IMG/VR virus record: IMGVR_UViG_3300044730_000689
Span: 1-24,789 of that record
Origin: a virus
DNA: 24,789 nucleotides
Direction: 5' to 3' (one strand)
Positions 10,258 to 23,687 of the stretch are shown piece by piece. The notes beneath the pieces were generated by a model. It searched no databases. It was not told where the DNA came from and saw only the letters and a program-made list of their open reading frames with translations. The stretch's first letter is position 1; each line of letters opens with the position of its first letter. A program made the translations under genes and the position numbers.

Positions 10258-11106
10258 TTATTTCTCCACAAAACTTAAACCATAACTATATTCTCCCACC
10301 GTTGTTGTGTTTTGTAAAAATGCAAAAGCTAAACAAGCGTTAGTATCAATCTTTGGCAATCCTGGTAATCCTGTGGTGAAATCTCTAAACCCTGGTGCTG
10401 CTGCCGCTCCAATAGGAATATAGGCAATCGGCCTAGCAATCGTAATCCCAAAGTCTCCAGCCGTTCCTGTGGTTGCATCTAACTTCACTTTTTCAATCGC
10501 TTGAATCCCTTTGTCGCCTGCAGCTAATGGAATCGGAGTCATTCTTGTAGCTTCTCTAAAACCAGCACTACCAATCGTTTGCGTGGAAGTGCGGCCTGTG
10601 GTTCCTGCACTATTGGTGTAAGTCATTGTAAGAGTTCTATTTGTTGAACCTATGGTTGTATAAATCTCATAAAAAGCAATATTGCCCACCCCACCTGTGT
10701 TGCGTGTGAGTGCTGGTGTTGGTGTGGTTCCTTGCACTGTTTGGTCTGCTGTGGAAACTCCACTTAAACCGCTAATATGCAAAAGCCTATCATACACTAG
10801 TAATATTCCTGGTGTGGTACAAGTGGCAAATATTTGTGTGAGCCATTTCTCTCTTGAACCACCTGGATTTGTGATTGGCAATGCACCATTGGTACTATTC
10901 GTTGGTACTGCCACCGCTCCTGGAGCCGCTCCATTGCCATAAGTGCCATCATATTGCCAAAGTGAAGTGTAGCGACCCCCCACTGGTGTGGTTGCTCCCA
11001 CTCCGTTCACCCTACCTGCTTTAAAAGCAAAAATGTTTTCAGGAGTGCCATTATTACCGCCAGTAAAGCGATTGATTAAATCTGATAAATCTGTTAATGC
11101 TGCCAT
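10258..11106 (-). CDS. Paralogous surface-type structural protein A, 282 aa
   Basis: This is the partner of the downstream 274-residue protein. The N-terminal third (MAALTDLSDLINRFTGGNNG, then GGRYTSLWQYDGTYGNGAAP) differs, while residues about 110-230 align: YDRLLHISGLSG, ALTRNTGGVGNIAF, L-T-M-T-Y-T-N-S-A-G-T-T-G-R-T, IPLAAGDKGIQAIEKV and ATTGTAGDFGI. The compact repeated fold looks like a beta-sandwich. No enzymatic motif is seen. One 60-base line in the gene (10681-10740) is 57% G+C, compared with 30% in a line of the gp44-like gene (3241-3300), so composition is clearly different. It has only a 2-base gap to its paralog. Head or tail decoration or adhesion is possible; I cannot choose. 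Confidence 0.65.
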   Translation of the reverse strand: MAALTDLSDLINRFTGGNNGTPENIFAFKAGRVNGVGATTPVGGRYTSLWQYDGTYGNGAAPGAVAVPTNSTNGALPITNPGGSREKWLTQIFATCTTPGILLVYDRLLHISGLSGVSTADQTVQGTTPTPALTRNTGGVGNIAFYEIYTTIGSTNRTLTMTYTNSAGTTGRTSTQTIGSAGFREATRMTPIPLAAGDKGIQAIEKVKLDATTGTAGDFGITIARPIAYIPIGAAAAPGFRDFTTGLPGLPKIDTNACLAFAFLQNTTTVGEYSYGLSFVEK

Positions 11107-11327
11107 TAGTTACCGCTCCAATTAACGCCTCTGCCAATAGCATCAGCTTTCACTTGCCCAATGAAACCTGCCAAATTATCATAATTCACCCCAGACGACA
11201 TCTCCATCGTGCCTAAATTGGAACCAAACTCGATTTCGATTTCGCTGCCACTAGCTTTTATGTTTGCGATCCAGTCGCCCGTGCCTGCCTGATAAAAAAT
11301 TGTTCCGCCTATAATTTCTACGATCAT
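11106..11327 (-). CDS. Small unrecognised protein, 73 aa
   Basis: The 73-residue product (MIVEIIGGTIFYQAGTGDWI, ending RGVNWSGN) is not recognised. It is predicted mostly beta, acidic, and without a membrane segment. Its start has AAGGAAA 5-6 bases upstream. Its stop overlaps the ATG of the 282-residue protein by one base (TAATG), so the two are translationally coupled and it probably belongs to the same acquired module. A chaperone or small structural partner for the paralogous pair is possible, but nothing in the sequence shows that. Confidence 0.55.
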   Translation of the reverse strand: MIVEIIGGTIFYQAGTGDWIANIKASGSEIEIEFGSNLGTMEMSSGVNYDNLAGFIGQVKADAIGRGVNWSGN

Positions 11328-11336
11328 ATATTTCCT

Positions 11337-13712
11337 TTATGTGTATTGTAAATAAATATCCCCATCATTACCACCGCTTGGTGCTGCTGTTCCTGATGTT
11401 ATCACAGGCACTGCTGCATTTAGAGTGGTTCCACTAAAACTTAAATTACTGCCAAGTGTTATTTCTTGCATTGTACCGTTTGTACCGCTCTCTCTACCAA
11501 GCAAACGGTTATTAGTTATGTTTTGAATTTTTGCATACGTTACCGCTTGATTATCAATTGTCCAAGTCGATCCAGATCCTGATACTGAGATGTCGCCTTT
11601 GTCCCCGTCTGAAATACCGCCGCCGCCTGTTGAGTTGATTGTAATTGTATCTGTGGTTGCGTCTGTTGTGATTGTTACGTTTGTACCAGCTACTAAAGTT
11701 AGCGTGTCTGAAGTACCATCTGCTATTACATTTGATTGGCCCGCTACTGCTATAGTGCTAAATAAATTCTGATCGCCTGTATTAGTCCCTGAGCTGGTTC
11801 CAGAAAAAGTGCCGCTTTGGGTTGCCAGGGTTCCAAGTCCAAGAGTAGTTCTTTGCGCCGCCGCGTCTGCGTCATCAAGAAGAGCTTTCCCAGCTGTCGT
11901 TATATCGCCACCAAGCTTGCTAGTACTGACTGCGCCGTTTGCAATTGTTGCCGCAAAAGAGCCTGTACCTGTACCAGTTACATCACCCGTTAAAGTTATA
12001 GTTTGATCGCCAGTATTAGTGCCTGAGCTGGTTCCAGAAAAAGTACCGCTTTGGGTTGCCAAGGTTCCAAGTCCAAGAGTAGTTCTTTGCGCCGCCGCGT
12101 CTGCGTCATCAAGAAGAGCTTTACCCGCTGTCGTTATATCCCCGCCAAGTTTACTAGTGCTGACTGCGCTGTTTGCAATTGTTGCCGCAAAAGAGCCTGT
12201 ACCAGTACCAGTTACTTCACCCGTTAAAGTTATAGTTTGATCGCCAGTATTAGTGCCTGAGCTGGTTCCAGAAAAAGTGCCGCTTTGGGTTGCCAGGGTT
12301 CCAAGTCCAAGAGTAGTTCTTTGCGCCGCCGCGTCTGCGTCATCAAGAAGAGCTTTCCCAGCTGTCGTTATATCCCCGCCAAGCTTGCTAGTACTGACTG
12401 CGCCGCTGTCAATAGTCCAAGTAGATCCAGATCCAGATACAGAAATGTCGCCTTTGTCGCCATCTGTAACGCCTGGATTTGTGGTTGCAATTGTAACCGC
12501 GCCCGCCGCGTTGGTAATTGTAATATTTGAACCTGCTGTTAAATTTGCATTTTTCCAAAGCTGATTGGTTTGATCTCTAATTAATAAATTTCCATTAGCT
12601 GGGTTTGAAATTAAAACATCATGGATCTCATTAAGCTCATAGCCGTTTTGTGGTTTGACGTAAATTTGACCATTACCAGCATTAGCGCGTTCTACCACTC
12701 CAATAAAAACTAAATGATTCGGCTGTATTGGTTTGGTTCTGGTAAATTGTCCCGCTGTAGAATCAAGCCAAAGAATATCACCATTTACAAATGGAGCGCC
12801 AAGATTTAAACCATCAATTACGCCTTGAGTAATTACAAAACCTGTTTGATTTGAAGAGATAGATTCTGCTACAATCCCCAAAGTTTTTGCGCTGGTTGTA
12901 TCGCTAGTATTTGAAGCTCTTTTAACTGAAGCGCGGTTTCCTGAAGCCCCAAATAAATAAACTATTTCGCCTTTATTAAGTGTAGTCGCTTCTGCGTTTA
13001 TAACTCTTACGTGTAAATCTTGACCAATAACGTTTGATACATTACCGCCTTTGAAACCAAGTTCCAAAGAGCCGTCTGTACCATTCCAGCCAAGAGTTCC
13101 CTCTACAATTGTTGGAGCGGTTGCCGCTGTGTCAATTTGAATATAATCAGTTACTAAATTAGAAATATTTAACTGGCCTGCGTCCGATAAAATTGCATTT
13201 GAATTTTGTACAAGCTTACCAGTAGTCCCATCAAACTTTACTAAAGCGTCATCAGTACTAACGCCATTGTTTATTACATTTCCAGAAAATTGAGTTCCTA
13301 TAGCAGAAATAAGCCAGTTGGAGCCATTTGAAATTATTAAGATACTAGAATAATTTTCACTTAAAACATGATTTGCATTTCCGCTGACTGTTTCCGCGCC
13401 TGCTGGTGTGATTGTCAAAGTATTTGAAGCGCCGATTTTGTGAATTTCAAAAATTTTTCCTTTGATTCCTGCCGCGCTAGGTAAACTAGCAATTAAATTT
13501 CCGCCAGTAGTATTAAATAAAATTACCTCATCTGAAGTTTGTAAAGTATAGTTTGCGGTTTTTGCGGTTGCCTCTAAAATCTTTTTATTGTTATTGATTC
13601 TATTAATTTGCTTTGTGATTCGTGTACCAGTAGAATTTTCTGCTACTGGGAATAAGTCATCAGATCTAGGATCTGAGCTGACTGGTAAACCGCTAATTGG
13701 CAAATTAGGCAT
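11337..13712 (-). CDS. Repeat-containing tail fibre-like protein, 791 aa
   Basis: The 791-residue product is a fibre-like virion protein. The start (LPISGLPVSSDPRSDDLFPV) is the common attachment segment of phage fibres. Residues about 60-140 (TLQTSDEVILFNTTGGNLIA) match the small beta domain often seen next to it. Residues about 230-350 (NKGEIVYLFGASGN, GIVAESISSNQTGFVITQGV, VNGDILWLDSTAGQFT) resemble a domain frequent in fibres. Residues about 436-647 hold three 78-residue repeats with SKLGGDITTAGKALLDD and GTFSGTSSGTNTGDQ. The repeats are flanked by two copies of DGDKGDISVSGSGSTW. The C-terminus APSGGNDGDIYLQYT is also common in fibres. It overlaps the tail terminator stop by 8 bases. Adsorption is inferred; no receptor-binding or chaperone domain is identifiable. 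Confidence 0.8.
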   Translation of the reverse strand: MPNLPISGLPVSSDPRSDDLFPVAENSTGTRITKQINRINNNKKILEATAKTANYTLQTSDEVILFNTTGGNLIASLPSAAGIKGKIFEIHKIGASNTLTITPAGAETVSGNANHVLSENYSSILIISNGSNWLISAIGTQFSGNVINNGVSTDDALVKFDGTTGKLVQNSNAILSDAGQLNISNLVTDYIQIDTAATAPTIVEGTLGWNGTDGSLELGFKGGNVSNVIGQDLHVRVINAEATTLNKGEIVYLFGASGNRASVKRASNTSDTTSAKTLGIVAESISSNQTGFVITQGVIDGLNLGAPFVNGDILWLDSTAGQFTRTKPIQPNHLVFIGVVERANAGNGQIYVKPQNGYELNEIHDVLISNPANGNLLIRDQTNQLWKNANLTAGSNITITNAAGAVTIATTNPGVTDGDKGDISVSGSGSTWTIDSGAVSTSKLGGDITTAGKALLDDADAAAQRTTLGLGTLATQSGTFSGTSSGTNTGDQTITLTGEVTGTGTGSFAATIANSAVSTSKLGGDITTAGKALLDDADAAAQRTTLGLGTLATQSGTFSGTSSGTNTGDQTITLTGDVTGTGTGSFAATIANGAVSTSKLGGDITTAGKALLDDADAAAQRTTLGLGTLATQSGTFSGTSSGTNTGDQNLFSTIAVAGQSNVIADGTSDTLTLVAGTNVTITTDATTDTITINSTGGGGISDGDKGDISVSGSGSTWTIDNQAVTYAKIQNITNNRLLGRESGTNGTMQEITLGSNLSFSGTTLNAAVPVITSGTAAPSGGNDGDIYLQYT
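11771..12405. repeat. 234-bp tandem repeat in the fibre gene (2.7 copies)
   Basis: The string GAGCTGGTTCCAGAAAAAGT recurs at 11791, 12025 and 12259, exactly 234 bp apart (78 codons). Copies are about 11771-12004, 12005-12238 and 12239-12405, the last incomplete. They differ at only a few bases. Copies 1 and 3 share variants (CCAGGGTTCC, TTTCCCAGCTG) that copy 2 lacks (CCAAGGTTCC, TTTACCCGCTG). Confidence 0.95.
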
Positions 13713-14874
13713 TTAATTGTATTTTACTACCATTTTCCTGTAATAGCAAATAACCATCTTCTTGTAGTAAAAATATATCTGTGATTGGGAAATTGATTAA
13801 GTCTGATTCTGAGCCGCTAGTATTAAATTCGTATTCTACAAAAGCCGCTTCGATTTCGTTTGGCTCTTCTGAGTAAGCATAAGCGTTATAAATGATATTG
13901 AATCTAATCTGTCCAAAACCAAAAACTTTGTTTCCATCTTCATTAAAAACTTGATCACTAGAAACATAGGTTAAATCGCCCCACGCTGGTATTTGGTTAT
14001 ATTGATCAATCTCGTTTCTTAAAAGTACTTGAATAATTTTGTCGATTTTATCATCAAGAATATTGCCAAGTTCGCTGTTTGATTCGACTACTATTTCGAT
14101 CGTTAGCGGGATTTGCATTTCATAGATTCTAGTTGGTGAATCAGATAAAATTTTATTTACTGTTTCTAACTTTGTATTAATTGCAATCGCTGGCAATCGC
14201 TGATTTGCAATCCATTCTTGCGATCTGTTTACAAAAATATTTTGCGATAAAACTTGAATTTCGTTTGAAGCATTTACAAAAATTTCTTTTAAGCGATCTT
14301 TAATTTTTTTTCTTTGGCTTTTAAATGTTGGTAAAGTTTGGCTTTGATCTTCTTGCGCTTGTGGTGTGAAATTTAGTTGTATGTCTATAAAATATTCTTC
14401 CCAGTTTGAAACTGGGACTATATCCGCTTTTGCTTGATAAACCACGCTAAAATTTAATTTGCATAAGCCTATATTTTTATTGCCAGTTTCGTATAATGTT
14501 TGATCGCTTGAAGTATAAGTTAAGTCGCCCCATTTTGGGACTGCGTTATACTGATCCATTTCATTCTTTAATAAAATATCTATAACCCCACCAGCTAAAT
14601 CATCTAGCTGATCTGTGATTTCTGCGGAGCTTTGAACCAAACAATCAATTTCTACATCAAGCGTTATTTCGTATTCTCTGACTGGGACGTCAGAAATAAT
14701 CCTGTTTACAGTTTCTTTTTTTGTATTAATTATCACGCATGGCAAAAAGTCTAAATTATCAAGCTCTCTTGCTCTGTTTACTAAAATTTTATTTGCTGTT
14801 AATCCAAGCACTCCAGCTGAGCTTTGCAAGATTTCTGCAATTCGGTTTTTTATATCTCTTCTATAATTGTTCAT
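13705..14874 (-). CDS. Tandem-duplicated tail terminator-like protein, 389 aa
   Basis: The product is an internal duplication. Residues 11-150 and 194-333 align without a gap over 140 positions, 61 of them identical. The best blocks are TKKETVNRII / TKLETVNKIL, LLKNEMDQYN / LLRNEIDQYN and WGDLTYTSSDQ / WGDLTYVSSDQ. The fold pattern (N-terminal helix, central beta strands, helix, D-L-x-Y-x-S-x-D-Q, final strand) and position between head-tail joiner and sheath fit the tail terminator/completion family (lambda gpU, Mu gp37-type). Such proteins form hexameric rings capping the tail. The C-terminus adds FLLQEDGYLLLQENGS, a repeated LLQEDG-type motif seen at the ends of other phage structural proteins. 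It overlaps genes on both sides (1 and 8 bases). Family assignment is by context and pattern; the duplication is directly visible. Confidence 0.75.
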   Translation of the reverse strand: MNNYRRDIKNRIAEILQSSAGVLGLTANKILVNRARELDNLDFLPCVIINTKKETVNRIISDVPVREYEITLDVEIDCLVQSSAEITDQLDDLAGGVIDILLKNEMDQYNAVPKWGDLTYTSSDQTLYETGNKNIGLCKLNFSVVYQAKADIVPVSNWEEYFIDIQLNFTPQAQEDQSQTLPTFKSQRKKIKDRLKEIFVNASNEIQVLSQNIFVNRSQEWIANQRLPAIAINTKLETVNKILSDSPTRIYEMQIPLTIEIVVESNSELGNILDDKIDKIIQVLLRNEIDQYNQIPAWGDLTYVSSDQVFNEDGNKVFGFGQIRFNIIYNAYAYSEEPNEIEAAFVEYEFNTSGSESDLINFPITDIFLLQEDGYLLLQENGSKIQLNA

Positions 14875-19556: not shown

Positions 19557-21470
19557 TTACCAGAAATCTGATTTTTTGCGGTTTACTGGTTTATCTGGAA
19601 TTACTGATACATTTTTTTTATTTATTAGAGTAGTTTCTAAAACAGAAAAATCCTCATCATCAAAACGATCAATCCCGTAAACATACGCGGCCGCTCTTGC
19701 GTAAACTCTGCAATCTAAAGCTTCGTTACGTTCCCTGATTTTTTCCCAGCTGTAAGCACTAATCCCGCCGCGCGTGATTCTTTTTTTCTCTTCTGCTGTA
19801 AGCATTTTAAAATATTCGGTATCGTAATTATTTGGGAATTGACAATAGCCGCGCGGATAGCCATCATCTTCATTCAATGGCGGGTCTAATTTTAAAAACG
19901 AATAAAGCTCTTCTTTTACCAAATTGGTAGAAACTGGAAAATATTTCATACCCCTATAAATCCGCTTGCCATCCTTTCTCATGTCTACAATTCTTGGAAT
20001 CTCGACCATCACCACGCCTGAAGCTCGACCCTTAACTGCAATAATTCTTGAATCGCTTTGAGATCTTACCCAGTTGTAAACAATTTGCGTATTGTCCCCG
20101 CTGTCAATAGCAATTTTTTCAATTCTATAAATCAAACCATCAGCTGAATAATAAATTTTATTGATTTCTTTTTGGAGCTTAGCCCAAACTTCTTGCTGTG
20201 TCGTATCGCCCTCTATTCGTAAATAGTCAATTGACCAAGATTGCATATTTTGGCCCCAGCCTACGATTTCCATCTCTAAGCGATCCCGCTGTACATCCAC
20301 GCCAGCGGTTACCAAAAGCACGCCATTTGGTACAGTTCCGCGTAAGTAATTTGCTTTCAATCTATACAATCTTTCCCAGTCTGGCGATTCTCCGCGCTCT
20401 ACCCACGTTTCACCAAGCACCGTATTCACAAAATACTTAAGTTTGAGTATATTTCCCTGCGCCTCATCCCAATCTCTAGCAATATCTGACCAAGAATACC
20501 AGCCCAGCGGACTGTATAAAGAATTAAGATGATAGCCTCTAACTTTTTTGTTTTGGGTTTCTGCTGTTGCAATCCATTCACCACTTGCCAAAAAAGAATT
20601 TTTATGACCCTCTGAAAATCCCTCGCCGCAATACTTGCAAGAATAAAAAACATTTTCGTATTTGCCTTTGTCCCAGCGCAAATTTTCAAAAACTAATTTT
20701 TGTTTTTTATTGCAATACGGGCATGGTATAAAAAAATATCTTTGGTCTGAATCTAAAAACAATGGTTCGATTTGTGAAGTCTGCTGTACTGTTGGAGTTG
20801 AAACAATAAAAATTTTTTTGTTTCTAGTAAAAGTTCTGGTTCTCGCTTCTGCTAATTTTAACGGCGATCCCTCGCCGCCGCAATCTTCAGGATACGCGTC
20901 TACCTCATCTAGAAATAAATATCTGATTGGAGCAGATCTTAATCCAGTTGGGGAATTAGCACCAGCCAAAAGTAAAATACCGCCTGGAAATTCTTTTAAA
21001 AAAATTGTATTTCCTGAGTCTCGACTTTTTTTATCTAAAACTTTTTCTTTTAGTGCTGGAGTTTCGATAAACATTGGATCCAAGCGCTGACGCGTCAAAC
21101 GTCTGAGCATATCAACAGTTGGTTGAACCATCATGGCCGGCCCTGGAGCCATATCTACGATATAACCTAGCCAATTGTTGCCCATCTCCGTTGCCCCGAT
21201 CTGCGCCCCTTTCATAAAAATCACTTGCTGAATAGGATTATTAGAGCTTAAAGAATCCATAATTTCCCTTAAATAAGGAGTTCGATCGGTACGCCAGCGC
21301 CCTGGTTCTGAAGATGATTTTGTTGATAACATTCTGTTTTGATCCGACCATTCAGAAACTGTCAAATGAGTTGGATCTGGCTTCAAAGATTGCATACATA
21401 ATCTAAAAAGCATTTTTTCTTTTTGTCGATCGTTTAAATCTTTTTCAATATCTTCTTTATTTGTAATCAC
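19557..21470 (-). CDS. Large terminase subunit, lambda GpA family
   Basis: The 637-residue product is a GpA-type terminase, the packaging ATPase and nuclease, nearly the length of lambda gpA (641). It has the conserved P-x-x-x-x-x-x-E-W family start, a Walker A-type segment MKGAQIGATEM (86-96), Walker B YLFLDEVD (184-191), a Cys4 zinc-binding set (C250-P-Y-C253 and C278-K-Y-C281), and nuclease-domain acidic residues such as GVDVQRDRLE (390-399). A 'VRGYHLNSLYSPLGW' block (about 310-324) is also typical. The start is GTG at 21470, inside the small terminase gene (14-base overlap); AGAGGA lies further upstream than usual. Lambda-like GpA enzymes usually cut at cos sites, but no cos site was found in the window. 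Confidence 0.96.
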   Translation of the reverse strand: MITNKEDIEKDLNDRQKEKMLFRLCMQSLKPDPTHLTVSEWSDQNRMLSTKSSSEPGRWRTDRTPYLREIMDSLSSNNPIQQVIFMKGAQIGATEMGNNWLGYIVDMAPGPAMMVQPTVDMLRRLTRQRLDPMFIETPALKEKVLDKKSRDSGNTIFLKEFPGGILLLAGANSPTGLRSAPIRYLFLDEVDAYPEDCGGEGSPLKLAEARTRTFTRNKKIFIVSTPTVQQTSQIEPLFLDSDQRYFFIPCPYCNKKQKLVFENLRWDKGKYENVFYSCKYCGEGFSEGHKNSFLASGEWIATAETQNKKVRGYHLNSLYSPLGWYSWSDIARDWDEAQGNILKLKYFVNTVLGETWVERGESPDWERLYRLKANYLRGTVPNGVLLVTAGVDVQRDRLEMEIVGWGQNMQSWSIDYLRIEGDTTQQEVWAKLQKEINKIYYSADGLIYRIEKIAIDSGDNTQIVYNWVRSQSDSRIIAVKGRASGVVMVEIPRIVDMRKDGKRIYRGMKYFPVSTNLVKEELYSFLKLDPPLNEDDGYPRGYCQFPNNYDTEYFKMLTAEEKKRITRGGISAYSWEKIRERNEALDCRVYARAAAYVYGIDRFDDEDFSVLETTLINKKNVSVIPDKPVNRKKSDFW

Positions 21471-21972
21471 TACTTGCCAATTCCTCTAGCGCTTGATTTA
21501 TTTCTTGTGCTAGTCGCTCTTCAATTTCTTTTATGTCCGAGATCTGCGCCAGTTCTGCGGCGATCCTGCCAGGGATAGCACTTAGACTATTTTTTGTAAT
21601 CTTGCATACTGTAGAAAAAACTTTTTTTACCGATTTGACTTTTACTAAAGTTTTGATTTTTTCTAAATATTCAATTTCAGCCATGTTTGCTAAAAATCTT
21701 TCTTTTTTAGTTTTCGATTCTGAAAGAGTTGGGCCGTTTTGTGAATCCTCGCCAGATGGAGCCTGAGCCATAGCAAAACGATTTTCAATAAATTTTATTA
21801 GCGCGTCTTTTTTGTAAAATTGAGATCCGCCTTTTTCATACAAAAAAAATTCTGTTAAAAAGCCTCTTTTTGCCCACGCGTAAACTGTAGCGCGATTAAC
21901 GTTCAATTCTTTACAGATTTCTGTAACTGTTGTCTCGTTATTGTGTATTACTTGTGTCTTTGGTCTACCCAT
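21457..21972 (-). CDS. Small terminase subunit, Nu1/DUF1441-like, with HTH
   Basis: The 171-residue product has an N-terminal winged helix-turn-helix (about residues 13-60: TVTEICKELNVNRATVYAWA, then a basic wing and YKKDALIKFIENRF), as in lambda Nu1 and the DUF1441 family. The middle (SESKTKKERFLANMAEIEYL) is a coiled-coil helix and the C-terminal part (AAELAQISDIKEIEERLAQE) is a probable contact surface for the large subunit. It binds the packaging site on DNA and recruits the large terminase. The ATG is preceded by an A-rich stretch without a clear ribosome binding site. It is the first gene of the head operon, with a leader of about 200 bases in front. Confidence 0.85.
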   Translation of the reverse strand: MGRPKTQVIHNNETTVTEICKELNVNRATVYAWAKRGFLTEFFLYEKGGSQFYKKDALIKFIENRFAMAQAPSGEDSQNGPTLSESKTKKERFLANMAEIEYLEKIKTLVKVKSVKKVFSTVCKITKNSLSAIPGRIAAELAQISDIKEIEERLAQEINQALEELASSDYK

Positions 21973-22152
21973 TTATTTTTTTTGCAATCCGTAAATATAT
22001 TGACTAGAAAAATTCCGCGCCCTTGCGGCACCCGCTAAATTGTATAGCTGGAAGTACCTAAAGATACCCCCCCTATAGGTATATACCCTAGCAAAAATAT
22101 GTATAAATATGTATTTAATATATATAAAAAGATTTATCATGGTTGCAATCTG

Positions 22153-22174
22153 TATAGTAACAATAATTACTATA
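22153..22174. promoter_or_regulatory. Dyad operator candidate at the late promoter start
   Basis: TATAGTAA (22153-22160) and TTACTATA (22167-22174) form a perfect 8-bp inverted repeat with a 6-base spacer. It covers about +1 to +22 of the candidate late promoter. A related half-copy lies at 22211-22228, and the 15-mer AATAATTACTATAAA is repeated at 22162-22176 and 22218-22232. Confidence 0.5.
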
Positions 22175-22180
22175 AAATTA

Positions 22181-22209
22181 ATTTTAACTTATTAAAATAT
22201 ATTTGTAAA
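22181..22209 (-). promoter_or_regulatory. Candidate late promoter for the head-tail operon
   Basis: On the minus strand, TTTACA (22209-22204) and TAAAAT (22186-22181) are 17 bases apart, each 5 of 6 matches to the sigma-70 type consensus. Transcription would start near 22174 and run into the terminase genes. It overlaps the end region of the upstream 22226-22843 gene. Such sites arise easily in A+T-rich DNA. Confidence 0.45.
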
Positions 22210-22225
22210 TTAGTATTAATAATTA

Positions 22226-22843
22226 CTATAAAGCCTTACTTAGATTCTTGCTAAATTTTTCAGCATAATTAGATCTAACAATTTCCCTAGCATTGTCTAC
22301 AAATGGCCAATTCTGGTCAATTTGTACATTGTCTTTAAGTGTAAATAGTATTTCCAATGGTTTGCGTTCTTTGCTGGTTCTAACTGCTACAAATTTTTTA
22401 TTAGATTTAGTTTGTAGTAAAAACGGTCTGTTGCCGTAATAAGTTTTTTTTGATGATAAAACTCGATTTGGAAATCGCGGCGCGTTAAGGGTTTCCTTGC
22501 CAGGGTTTAAAAGTTTCCTAGTTTCTGAGCCTGGAGCCGCTACAATCCCTGAATCGGACGTTCTAAAGCCGCCAGTAACGTTTAAAGCCATGATTTTATC
22601 TCTTATTCCGACTATGGAGCTTTGGTCTGGATAGTCGCGCTTTTCTGCTCTAACTGCTTTTAAGGATCTTTTGCTCCAGTTTGTACGAATTTTAAAATAC
22701 CGATCTAAACCAGCGGTTTCTATATCCCTGACATCAAAAGCCAAGCCAGATAGCGTCTGAGCCATCACGAAAGGCATTTGTTTTGAAGCTATAGCACCTA
22801 ATTTGTCAATTAGTTCTGTTGCGTTTGTTTGGATCGTTACCAT
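22226..22843 (-). CDS. Tail-completion / minor tail protein candidate (gpZ or HK97 gp10-like)
   Basis: The 205-residue product looks like a tail-completion protein of the lambda gpZ/HK97 gp10 type. The N-terminus (TNATELIDKLGAIASKQMPF, then MAQTLSGLAFDVRDIE) gives a long amphipathic helix followed by the usual A-x-x-x-x-A-x-x-V-R/K pattern. It continues with Y-F-K-I-R-T-N-W, a beta-rich core and a basic C-terminus. In this family the protein seals the tail end or neck. The location upstream of terminase, separate from the other head-tail genes, is unusual. The start (ATG 22843) lacks a Shine-Dalgarno sequence; TAAAAT ends 6 bases before it, consistent with a leaderless mRNA. Family assignment is by pattern only. 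Confidence 0.5.
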   Translation of the reverse strand: MVTIQTNATELIDKLGAIASKQMPFVMAQTLSGLAFDVRDIETAGLDRYFKIRTNWSKRSLKAVRAEKRDYPDQSSIVGIRDKIMALNVTGGFRTSDSGIVAAPGSETRKLLNPGKETLNAPRFPNRVLSSKKTYYGNRPFLLQTKSNKKFVAVRTSKERKPLEILFTLKDNVQIDQNWPFVDNAREIVRSNYAEKFSKNLSKAL

Positions 22844-22855
22844 AGAAATATTTTA
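22844..22855 (-). promoter_or_regulatory. Leaderless promoter candidate for the 22843 gene
   Basis: The minus strand reads TAAAATATTTCTATG into the start codon. TAAAAT ends 6 bases before ATG, so transcription would begin at about the A of ATG. No ribosome binding site is present. The same 15 bases precede the divergent gene at 23481. No clear -35 hexamer is seen. Confidence 0.5.
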
Positions 22856-22888
22856 CTACATAGCTAAATAATTAAGAAAATTAATAAT

Positions 22889-23407
22889 TGCCACCAAAAA
22901 AAGCCCAAAAAAACCAGTAATACGAAAAAATTTTAATACAAACTTGTATATATAACTTGCCGTGGCAATATATTATCTAACCCAAAATGCCAGCAAAATG
23001 CCACCTATTATTTTGACTTAAGTTTTTTACAAAAACCCAAAAAAATCAATAAACAAGCCACCTATAATAATAATAATAATATATTTATATAAATAATTAT
23101 TATTATTATTATACCCTGGCAAGTGTGGTTTAATACATAGTGTATACTTTTTGCTTTTTATTGTTTTTTTAAAAAAAAGCTATTTTTTTTTAGGGTATAC
23201 TGTGTTTTTTTACTTGCCACTTGCCAAAAACGCTAAAACCCGCATGGTTGAGCCATAAATCGCGGTTTTTAAGTGGCATAAGTGGTTTTTTTATTAGATA
23301 ATACTCCAATTTTACTGGCAAAACCCCATGCCAGCTATACAGATTATCTGTAAGAGTGCAGGAAACTTTTGCGGTTTTATTAAAGCTTTTTAAGTTTCAT
23401 ACTGGCA
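22889..23407. repeat. Array of eleven TGCCA/TGGCA motifs
   Basis: Sites start at 22889, 22963, 22988, 22999, 23117, 23215, 23222, 23274, 23316, 23329 and 23403, in both orientations. Notable pairs are TTGCC-GT-GGCAA (22957-22968), AAAATGCCA twice 11 bp apart (22984 and 22995), CTTGCCACTTGCCA (23213-23226) and CTGGCA/TGCCAG inverted (23315-23334). Many extend to TTGCCA or ACTGGCA. Confidence 0.85.
23063..23113. repeat. 51-bp A+T-only perfect inverted repeat
   Basis: TATAATAATAATAATAAT (23063-23080) is the exact reverse complement of 23096-23113, with a 15-base A+T spacer. Short GCCA and TGGC sequences flank the arms on the left and right (23057-23060 and 23117-23120), extending the symmetry. 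Confidence 0.95.
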
Positions 23408-23413
23408 ATTAAT

Positions 23414-23438
23414 AGCCGAGTTTAACAGCCGAGTTTAA
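23414..23438 (+). promoter_or_regulatory. Tandem AGCCGAGTTTAA repeat upstream of the plus-strand gene
   Basis: AGCCGAGTTTAA occurs at 23414-23425 and 23427-23438, a 13-bp period, ending 42 bases before the ATG at 23481. With no recognisable -35 for that promoter, an activator site is a reasonable guess. Confidence 0.6.
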
Positions 23439-23468
23439 GCAAAACTACCCAAAAAAAGTATTATCAAT

Positions 23469-23480
23469 TAAAATATTTCT
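23469..23480 (+). promoter_or_regulatory. Leaderless promoter candidate for the 23481 gene
   Basis: TAAAAT (23469-23474) ends 6 bases before ATG 23481, with no ribosome binding site between. The sequence TAAAATATTTCTATG is identical to that at the divergent gene starting at 22843. Confidence 0.5.
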
Positions 23481-23687
23481 ATGAAAATTGCTGAAATGTT
23501 TGCTTTAAGATTGGCTGAAGAGCTTAATATCATCAGCATTTTTTTACTGCTTTTAGTTGCTTTTATGGGTTTTTGTGTCTATTCAATTTATTATATGCTT
23601 CGCTCTGAGCGCCAATTTTGGCTTGAAACTAATAAAGAGCTTCAAAACCAAATAAATACTTTACTGGACCGCTTAACGCATTTATAA
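23481..23687 (+). CDS. Small membrane protein with coiled-coil tail, 68 aa
   Basis: The 68-residue product has one clear membrane segment at about residues 17-40 (IISIFLLLLVAFMGFCVYSI), preceded by an amphipathic start (MKIAEMFALRLAEELN) and followed by a charged, heptad-like tail (ETNKELQNQINTLLDRLTHL). This layout fits a small inner-membrane protein such as a spanin- or holin-associated factor, but no family is recognised. It is on the plus strand, divergent from the late operon across the control region. Translation probably starts without a leader. The stop TAA lies within the TATAAT that precedes the next gene. Confidence 0.6.
   Translation: MKIAEMFALRLAEELNIISIFLLLLVAFMGFCVYSIYYMLRSERQFWLETNKELQNQINTLLDRLTHL

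Follow-up and report, generated by a model that had tools for sequence, protein, structure and literature searches.

A two-strand array of short sites around an A/T-only core is a probable replication origin of an uncultured tailed phage

What does a dense cluster of one short motif do in a stretch of phage DNA that carries no gene? The question is raised by the right end of the window analyzed here, a 24.8-kb fragment (24,789 nucleotides) of the IMG/VR virus record IMGVR_UViG_3300044730_000689. A sequence-only reading had reported 11 copies of TGCCA or its complement TGGCA within 22889-23407, arranged as inverted pairs (TTGCC-GT-GGCAA and CTGGCA-8-TGCCAG) and as direct pairs 7 and 11 bases apart in a gene-free region, and had offered an operator, the sites of a replication initiator or a transposase/recombinase array as explanations. 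Counting the pentamer on both strands of the window recovered all 11 copies and each of the pairs in place, and the 637 bp between the flanking genes hold no convincing ORF (Table 1).

In dinucleotide-preserving shuffles of the array region, the pentamer occurred 1.7 times on average and at most 6 times, and none of 2000 shuffles reached 11. The excess is therefore real, but it is about 6-fold rather than the 20-fold implied by an expectation of roughly half a copy. The bare pentamer is also equalled elsewhere in the window: a coding stretch at about 10727-11246 likewise holds 11 copies of TGCCA/TGGCA in 520 bp, nine of them on one strand, so that for the pentamer, though not for the longer motif described below, the refuting condition named by the sequence-only reading (equal density elsewhere) holds. 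Since the pentamer is not unique and on its own constitutes weak evidence, the case for the array is carried by a longer motif, which is not equalled elsewhere, and by comparison with relatives. The functional feature would be this longer motif, about GTGGCAAG, with degenerate copies included. A long gene at 11337-13712, which probably encodes a fibre-like protein, has tandem internal repeats that place TGCCA every 234 bp (11823, 12057, and 12291).

Among the products of the window are the two terminase subunits, the large one of lambda type, together with baseplate J and a gpZ-like minor tail protein. Its terminase is closest (about 50%) to those of Wolbachia phage WO and Rhodobacter phages, and searches of bacterial genome contigs with the terminase and tail protein gave no close relative. 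The relatives are the contigs L003/L006, of which L003 is nearest, L004, and the 43-kb contig G003, whose terminase is 87% identical to that of the window; searches with the genes around the array returned the same three contigs each time and no further relatives. GenBank phages contained no DNA similar to the array region, and an Rfam search of the region gave no match. Since the ends of G003 overlap by 157 bp at 97.5%, this contig is close to a complete circular map. On this map the array is the starting point of the late genes, which extend leftward around the circle, and the early genes stop on the opposite side of the array. Base skews around the G003 array and codon-position skews in G003 were uninformative. 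Compared with L003/L006, the stretch 19557-23480 is mosaic: the terminase large subunit and a 68-aa protein are 100% identical, the minor tail protein 83% and the array region 79%.

The gene-free region has homologous regions in L003, L004, and L005. Over the array, the window is 79% identical to L003 and about 50% identical to L004/L005, and the exact pentamer occurs 8 times in the former and 4 times in the latter, with copies of GGTGG and GGCAAG remaining. The array as a whole is thus kept in the relatives, but the single sites are not: identity between the window and L003 is 67% at the sites and 80% in their flanks. Individual sites are gained and lost while the array persists. The longer motif was scored with a fixed-site matrix; free EM motif discovery converged on poly-T. 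When trained on the window and L003, the matrix found its densest 600-bp bin at the homologous region both in G003 (6 versus 0.7 expected, P about 1e-4) and in L004 (5 versus 0.5 expected). When trained on L004/L005, it found its top bin at the array in L006 and, more weakly, in the window. Both trainings converged on GTGGCAAG, and the window, L006, and G003 each contain one dominant motif cluster. An exact pattern scan with TATAGGTGGCTTGNTTAT also returned L186 and L187, which were rejected as chance matches with no homologous genes.

Motif sites flank an A/T-only stretch on both sides, and nearest-neighbour energies place the window's least stable 50 bp within it. In all four contigs compared (the window, L006, G003, and L004), the least stable 50 bp, rank 1 in each, lie inside the array, even though the core sequences differ, being (AT)n-like rather than (ATA)n-like in G003 and L004. 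At one border of the core, GGTGGCTT, the reverse complement of AAGCCACC, is common to the window and L003, and part of it (TGGCTTG) occurs in L004/L005. The edge of the array (23409-23434) carries a tandem 13-bp repeat, TTAA(T/C)AGCCGAGT, which is found in L003 as well and is absent in L004/L005.

Table 1. Features of the array region and its surroundings (window coordinates)
Feature	Position	Strand	Basis
TGCCA starts	22889, 22988, 22999, 23215, 23222, 23329	+	pentamer count
TGCCA starts	22963, 23117, 23274, 23316, 23403	-	pentamer count
Candidate cos: conserved G+C-rich block upstream of terS, core GCGGGTGCCGCAAGGGCGCGG	22000..22059	-	conservation, L011 end
Gene of minor-tail (gpZ-like) protein, first leftward of array	22226..22843	-	PHROG 1924, E 9.5e-21
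Gene-free region, proposed replication origin	22844..23480	.	motif array on both strands around A/T-only core
-10-like TAAAAT, 6 bp before ATG of leftward gene	22850..22855	-	inferred promoter
Site TGCCA (ATTGCCACC)	22889..22893	+	pentamer count
Overlapping inverted sites CTTGCCGTGGCAA	22957..22969	.	sequence inspection, pentamer count
Two direct sites TGCCAGC and TGCCACCT, 11 bp apart	22988..23005	+	pentamer count
Degenerate site AAGCCACC, borders A/T core on one side	23055..23062	+	alignment with relatives
A/T-only inverted repeat, 51 bp, proposed DNA unwinding element	23063..23113	.	stability minimum, inverted repeat
Site CTTGCCA (+ strand TGGCAAG), right border of A/T core	23117..23123	-	pentamer count
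Direct pair CTTGCCACTTGCCA, 7 bp apart	23213..23226	+	pentamer count
Site TGCCAC (+ strand GTGGCA)	23273..23278	-	pentamer count
Inverted pair CTGGCA-8-TGCCAG	23315..23334	.	pentamer count; conserved in L003
Site TTGCCAG (+ strand CTGGCAA)	23402..23408	-	pentamer count; conserved in L003
-10-like TAAAAT, 6 bp before ATG of rightward gene	23469..23474	+	inferred promoter
Small gene, predicted membrane/coiled-coil product, first rightward of array	23481..23687	+	ORF list, prediction

The primase gene is absent from the 24.8-kb window, and the candidate initiator comes from G003 and partial contigs. G003 encodes an 853-residue primase-helicase with a zinc ribbon and Toprim, homologues of which are present in GenBank phages. 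Seven such phages were scanned for hexamer clusters and stability minima with no preset motif. Five of them (phi1422, Acjo_20, MQ-4, PY223, and ZRG1) contain an intergenic array of the GTTAC/GTAAC/GTTAG type around the 50 bp with the lowest stability in the genome; S-H1 carries its array at the primase 3' end, away from its stability minimum, and the hexamer cluster scan found no strong array in Mwe-JY13. In PY223 and ZRG1, the array lies upstream of the terS-terL block, and in ZRG1 an annotated minor tail gene stands between the two, as in the window. The literature searched yielded no published description of the primase-gene arrays of these five phages or of S-H1. ZRG1 (L105) also carries direct repeats, ATCCTA and ATCGGG, inside a gene at about 39500-40280.

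The survey was then based on 80 further IMG/VR loci with a homologous primase-helicase, 85 loci being usable. The strongest hexamer array fell on the stability minimum in 56 of the 85, compared with 2.7 expected at random, 17.9 expected if the minimum is placed randomly in ORF-free DNA, and 8 of 70 control loci selected by terminase. After removal of proteins >90% identical, 56 non-redundant loci remained; in 43 of them, against 6.7 expected, the array sat at the primase 3' end, and the core of 38 of those 43 arrays fits GTNR[C/G], as do 6% of eligible hexamers. With stricter redundancy cuts the array had this position in 13 of 24 loci at 70% identity and in 2 of 9 at 50%, counts too small to carry the rule with confidence past one large clade. 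Most arrays are GTNAC-like, with one two-strand hexamer array per locus, and sites flank the minimum in every one of the 51 cases where an array with a GT-type core falls on it; since GTNAC is nearly palindromic, the way the sites point with respect to the A/T core is ambiguous in the survey loci. The window's GTGGC fits GTNR[C/G], and its motif is one to two bases off the commonest cores of the family, and looser. In an exact-hexamer scan of the part of G003 contained in L106, a different cluster ranks first. Among the controls, L023 (549-986), L026 (1688-2125), L053 (198-484), and L057 (1711-2158) have two-strand arrays (TGGAAA, ACATTC, ATCCAC) on the stability minimum, which are perhaps other origins. 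Two further loci stood out: L179, with 19 copies of GTACTA on both strands at 20466-20631, and the survey outlier L172, with an 11-copy CGCAAC array (13742-14020) about 1 kb downstream of the primase gene and off the stability minimum.

The N-terminal primase part of these proteins varies, being of the PriCT_2 type in Acjo_20 and of Toprim or zinc types elsewhere, and yet the kind of array is the same. Considering that the C-terminal half is common to all of them, the helicase/C-terminal part is the likely reader of the motif. For the G003 protein, an AlphaFold2 model (mean pLDDT 80) matches the primase-helicase structures of NrS-1, poxvirus D5/E5 and SaPI5/PriRep1 with low global TM-scores, a match that supports the helicase class rather than a detailed superposition. 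Residues 723-786 of the model are predicted to have the order of a winged helix (helix-strand-strand-helix-helix-strand-strand), as read from secondary structure rather than from a fold match. The C-terminal 139 residues were also modelled from a single sequence, with pLDDT 48, and that model was discarded.

Taken together, we consider it probable that the array is a replication origin with iterons, of the SaPI/PICI/P4 kind, which is recognized by the primase-helicase of the phage itself and has been displaced from the gene of that protein. About ten or more asymmetric sites near GTGGCAAG would form two groups on either side of the 51-bp A/T-only stretch. The primase-helicase would bind copies of the site through its C-terminal domain, assemble on both flanks, melt the A/T core and load itself there as the helicase. 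The origin would not adjoin the primase gene; it would occupy the junction where the early gene block ends and the late operon starts. Of the three options offered by the sequence-only reading, initiator sites are thus favoured, on the strength of the conserved densest cluster, the least stable 50 bp and a layout like that at primase-helicase genes; an operator is not favoured, and neither is a recombinase array, for which no evidence was found.

In the operator reading, many sites for a phage activator or repressor would govern two divergent promoters and switch on the late operon to the left and the small genes to the right. The region is indeed divergent and situated at the early/late boundary, and the -10-like TAAAAT stands near both start codons in the window and in L003, at 6 bp from the ATG, which suggests leaderless transcripts. 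On the leftward side, where the element is a possible leaderless start of the late operon, TAAAAT precedes the ATG in the window, L003, L004, and L005; on the rightward side it reads TAAAAT in L003 and TACAAT in L004/L005. Both divergent gene starts carry an identical TAAAATATTTCTATG, and similar sequences occur in the relatives. However, the nearest site stands at varying distances from the late gene's -10-like element (about 38 bp in the window, 66 bp in L003, 30 bp in L005), where a late-promoter activator usually needs a fixed spacing, and such an activator should have sites at several phage promoters rather than the single dominant cluster found in the window, L006, and G003. Moreover, an A/T-only core surrounded by some ten sites within 520 bp exceeds the usual promoter switch, and in the primase relatives the same layout is found at the primase 3' end and not at a late promoter. 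We therefore regard regulation as an unlikely main role, although an origin and promoters may share one region and promoter function may coexist with the origin here.

The proximity of the array to terS also raises the idea of a packaging site (cosB or pac) bound by the terminase small subunit, a protein with a helix-turn-helix domain, and such sites can have repeated binding sites. A separate candidate for that role exists in a strongly conserved G+C-rich block directly upstream of terS, which is common to the window, L003, L004, and G003 (about 4600-4700 in L006 and about 3270 in L004). Contig L011 begins exactly at the block's GGTGCCGC, as expected of a cohesive end. A lambda-type cosB array would adjoin the cleavage site beside terS, whereas the present array lies about 800 bp from the cos-like block, beyond a gene, and most primase relatives have the same type of array at the primase gene; packaging is accordingly a very improbable explanation. 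A DNA alignment that set the block against ZRG1, PY223, and G003 was discarded for its poor placement; the L005 stretch used in it fell in an inserted gene. Extra genes occur near the block in G003 (11633-12175, 180 aa, no known family) and in L011 (about 90-1470, ParB/methyltransferase-like by eye). Least credible of all is a statistical accident or a by-product of base composition in A/T-rich intergenic DNA. The coding stretch of equal pentamer density and the lack of positional conservation of the sites speak for it; the shuffles, the cross-validated enrichment in an independent genome and a layout common to dozens of loci speak against it.

Origins of the proposed kind are known from mobile elements. 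In SaPIs, the C-terminal domain of the Rep helicase recognizes an iteron origin directly downstream of the rep gene (PMC7581432), and the SCCmec helicase Cch2 requires AAGTG repeats (PMC7581432). The initiator of satellite phage P4 is a fused primase-helicase (PMC7145576). The window shares with the rep-ori of SaPIs and Gram-negative PICIs (PMC7581432, PMC6092414) many copies of one short intergenic motif in two sets flanking an AT-rich region. Origins of this type come with an SF3/D5-like helicase fused to or beside a primase and carrying a C-terminal DNA-binding domain; the candidate for it is the G003 protein, encoded outside the 24.8-kb window, and its model has a fold match to the SaPI5 and PriRep1 structures. 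In contrast to these elements, the window belongs to a full-size tailed phage and not to a satellite, its motif (GTGGCAAG) differs, and in its lineage the proposed origin lies between the early and late blocks, away from the initiator gene (about 6.5 kb in G003), which also sets G003 apart from most of its primase relatives. A position directly downstream of the initiator gene is typical of SaPI/PICI/P4-type origins though perhaps not universal. The P4 ori is not adjacent to the alpha gene, and the P4 type I repeats, GGTGAACAG, resemble GGTGGCAAG. P4 (alpha, ori, crr) thus resembles the window lineage in its fused primase-helicase initiator and repeated short sites, while host and genome organization differ and the likeness to alpha is one of initiator type. 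Cch2 is likewise a D5-type helicase, and its C-terminal domain binds short repeats downstream of its operon, but that system has only three iterons, no fused primase and a different type of element (PMC7581432). The phages phi1422, Acjo_20, MQ-4, S-H1, PY223, and ZRG1 share with G003 a homologous C-terminal helicase half, and with both G003 and the window a two-strand motif array, with GTTAC, GTAAC, or GTTAG as the core where the window has GTGGC.

A wider proposal, which we put forward tentatively and consider somewhat doubtful, is that a large group of full-size tailed phages uses self-loading primase-helicase origins, that the motif code (GTTAC, GTTAG, GTGAG, GTGAC, GTGGC) drifts with the C-terminal domain, and that in the window lineage the origin has been relocated to the meeting point of early genes, late promoter and cos. 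If so, a mechanism described for satellites and islands would extend to full-size phages, and an origin at this point could couple the start of replication to late transcription and packaging. To our knowledge, the origins of most environmental phages are unknown. The signature described here, a two-strand array of a short motif on the stability minimum together with the primase-helicase family, points to candidate origins in dozens of phages that are uncultured, and the differences in motif from one relative to the next form a natural data set on how the C-terminal domain reads DNA.
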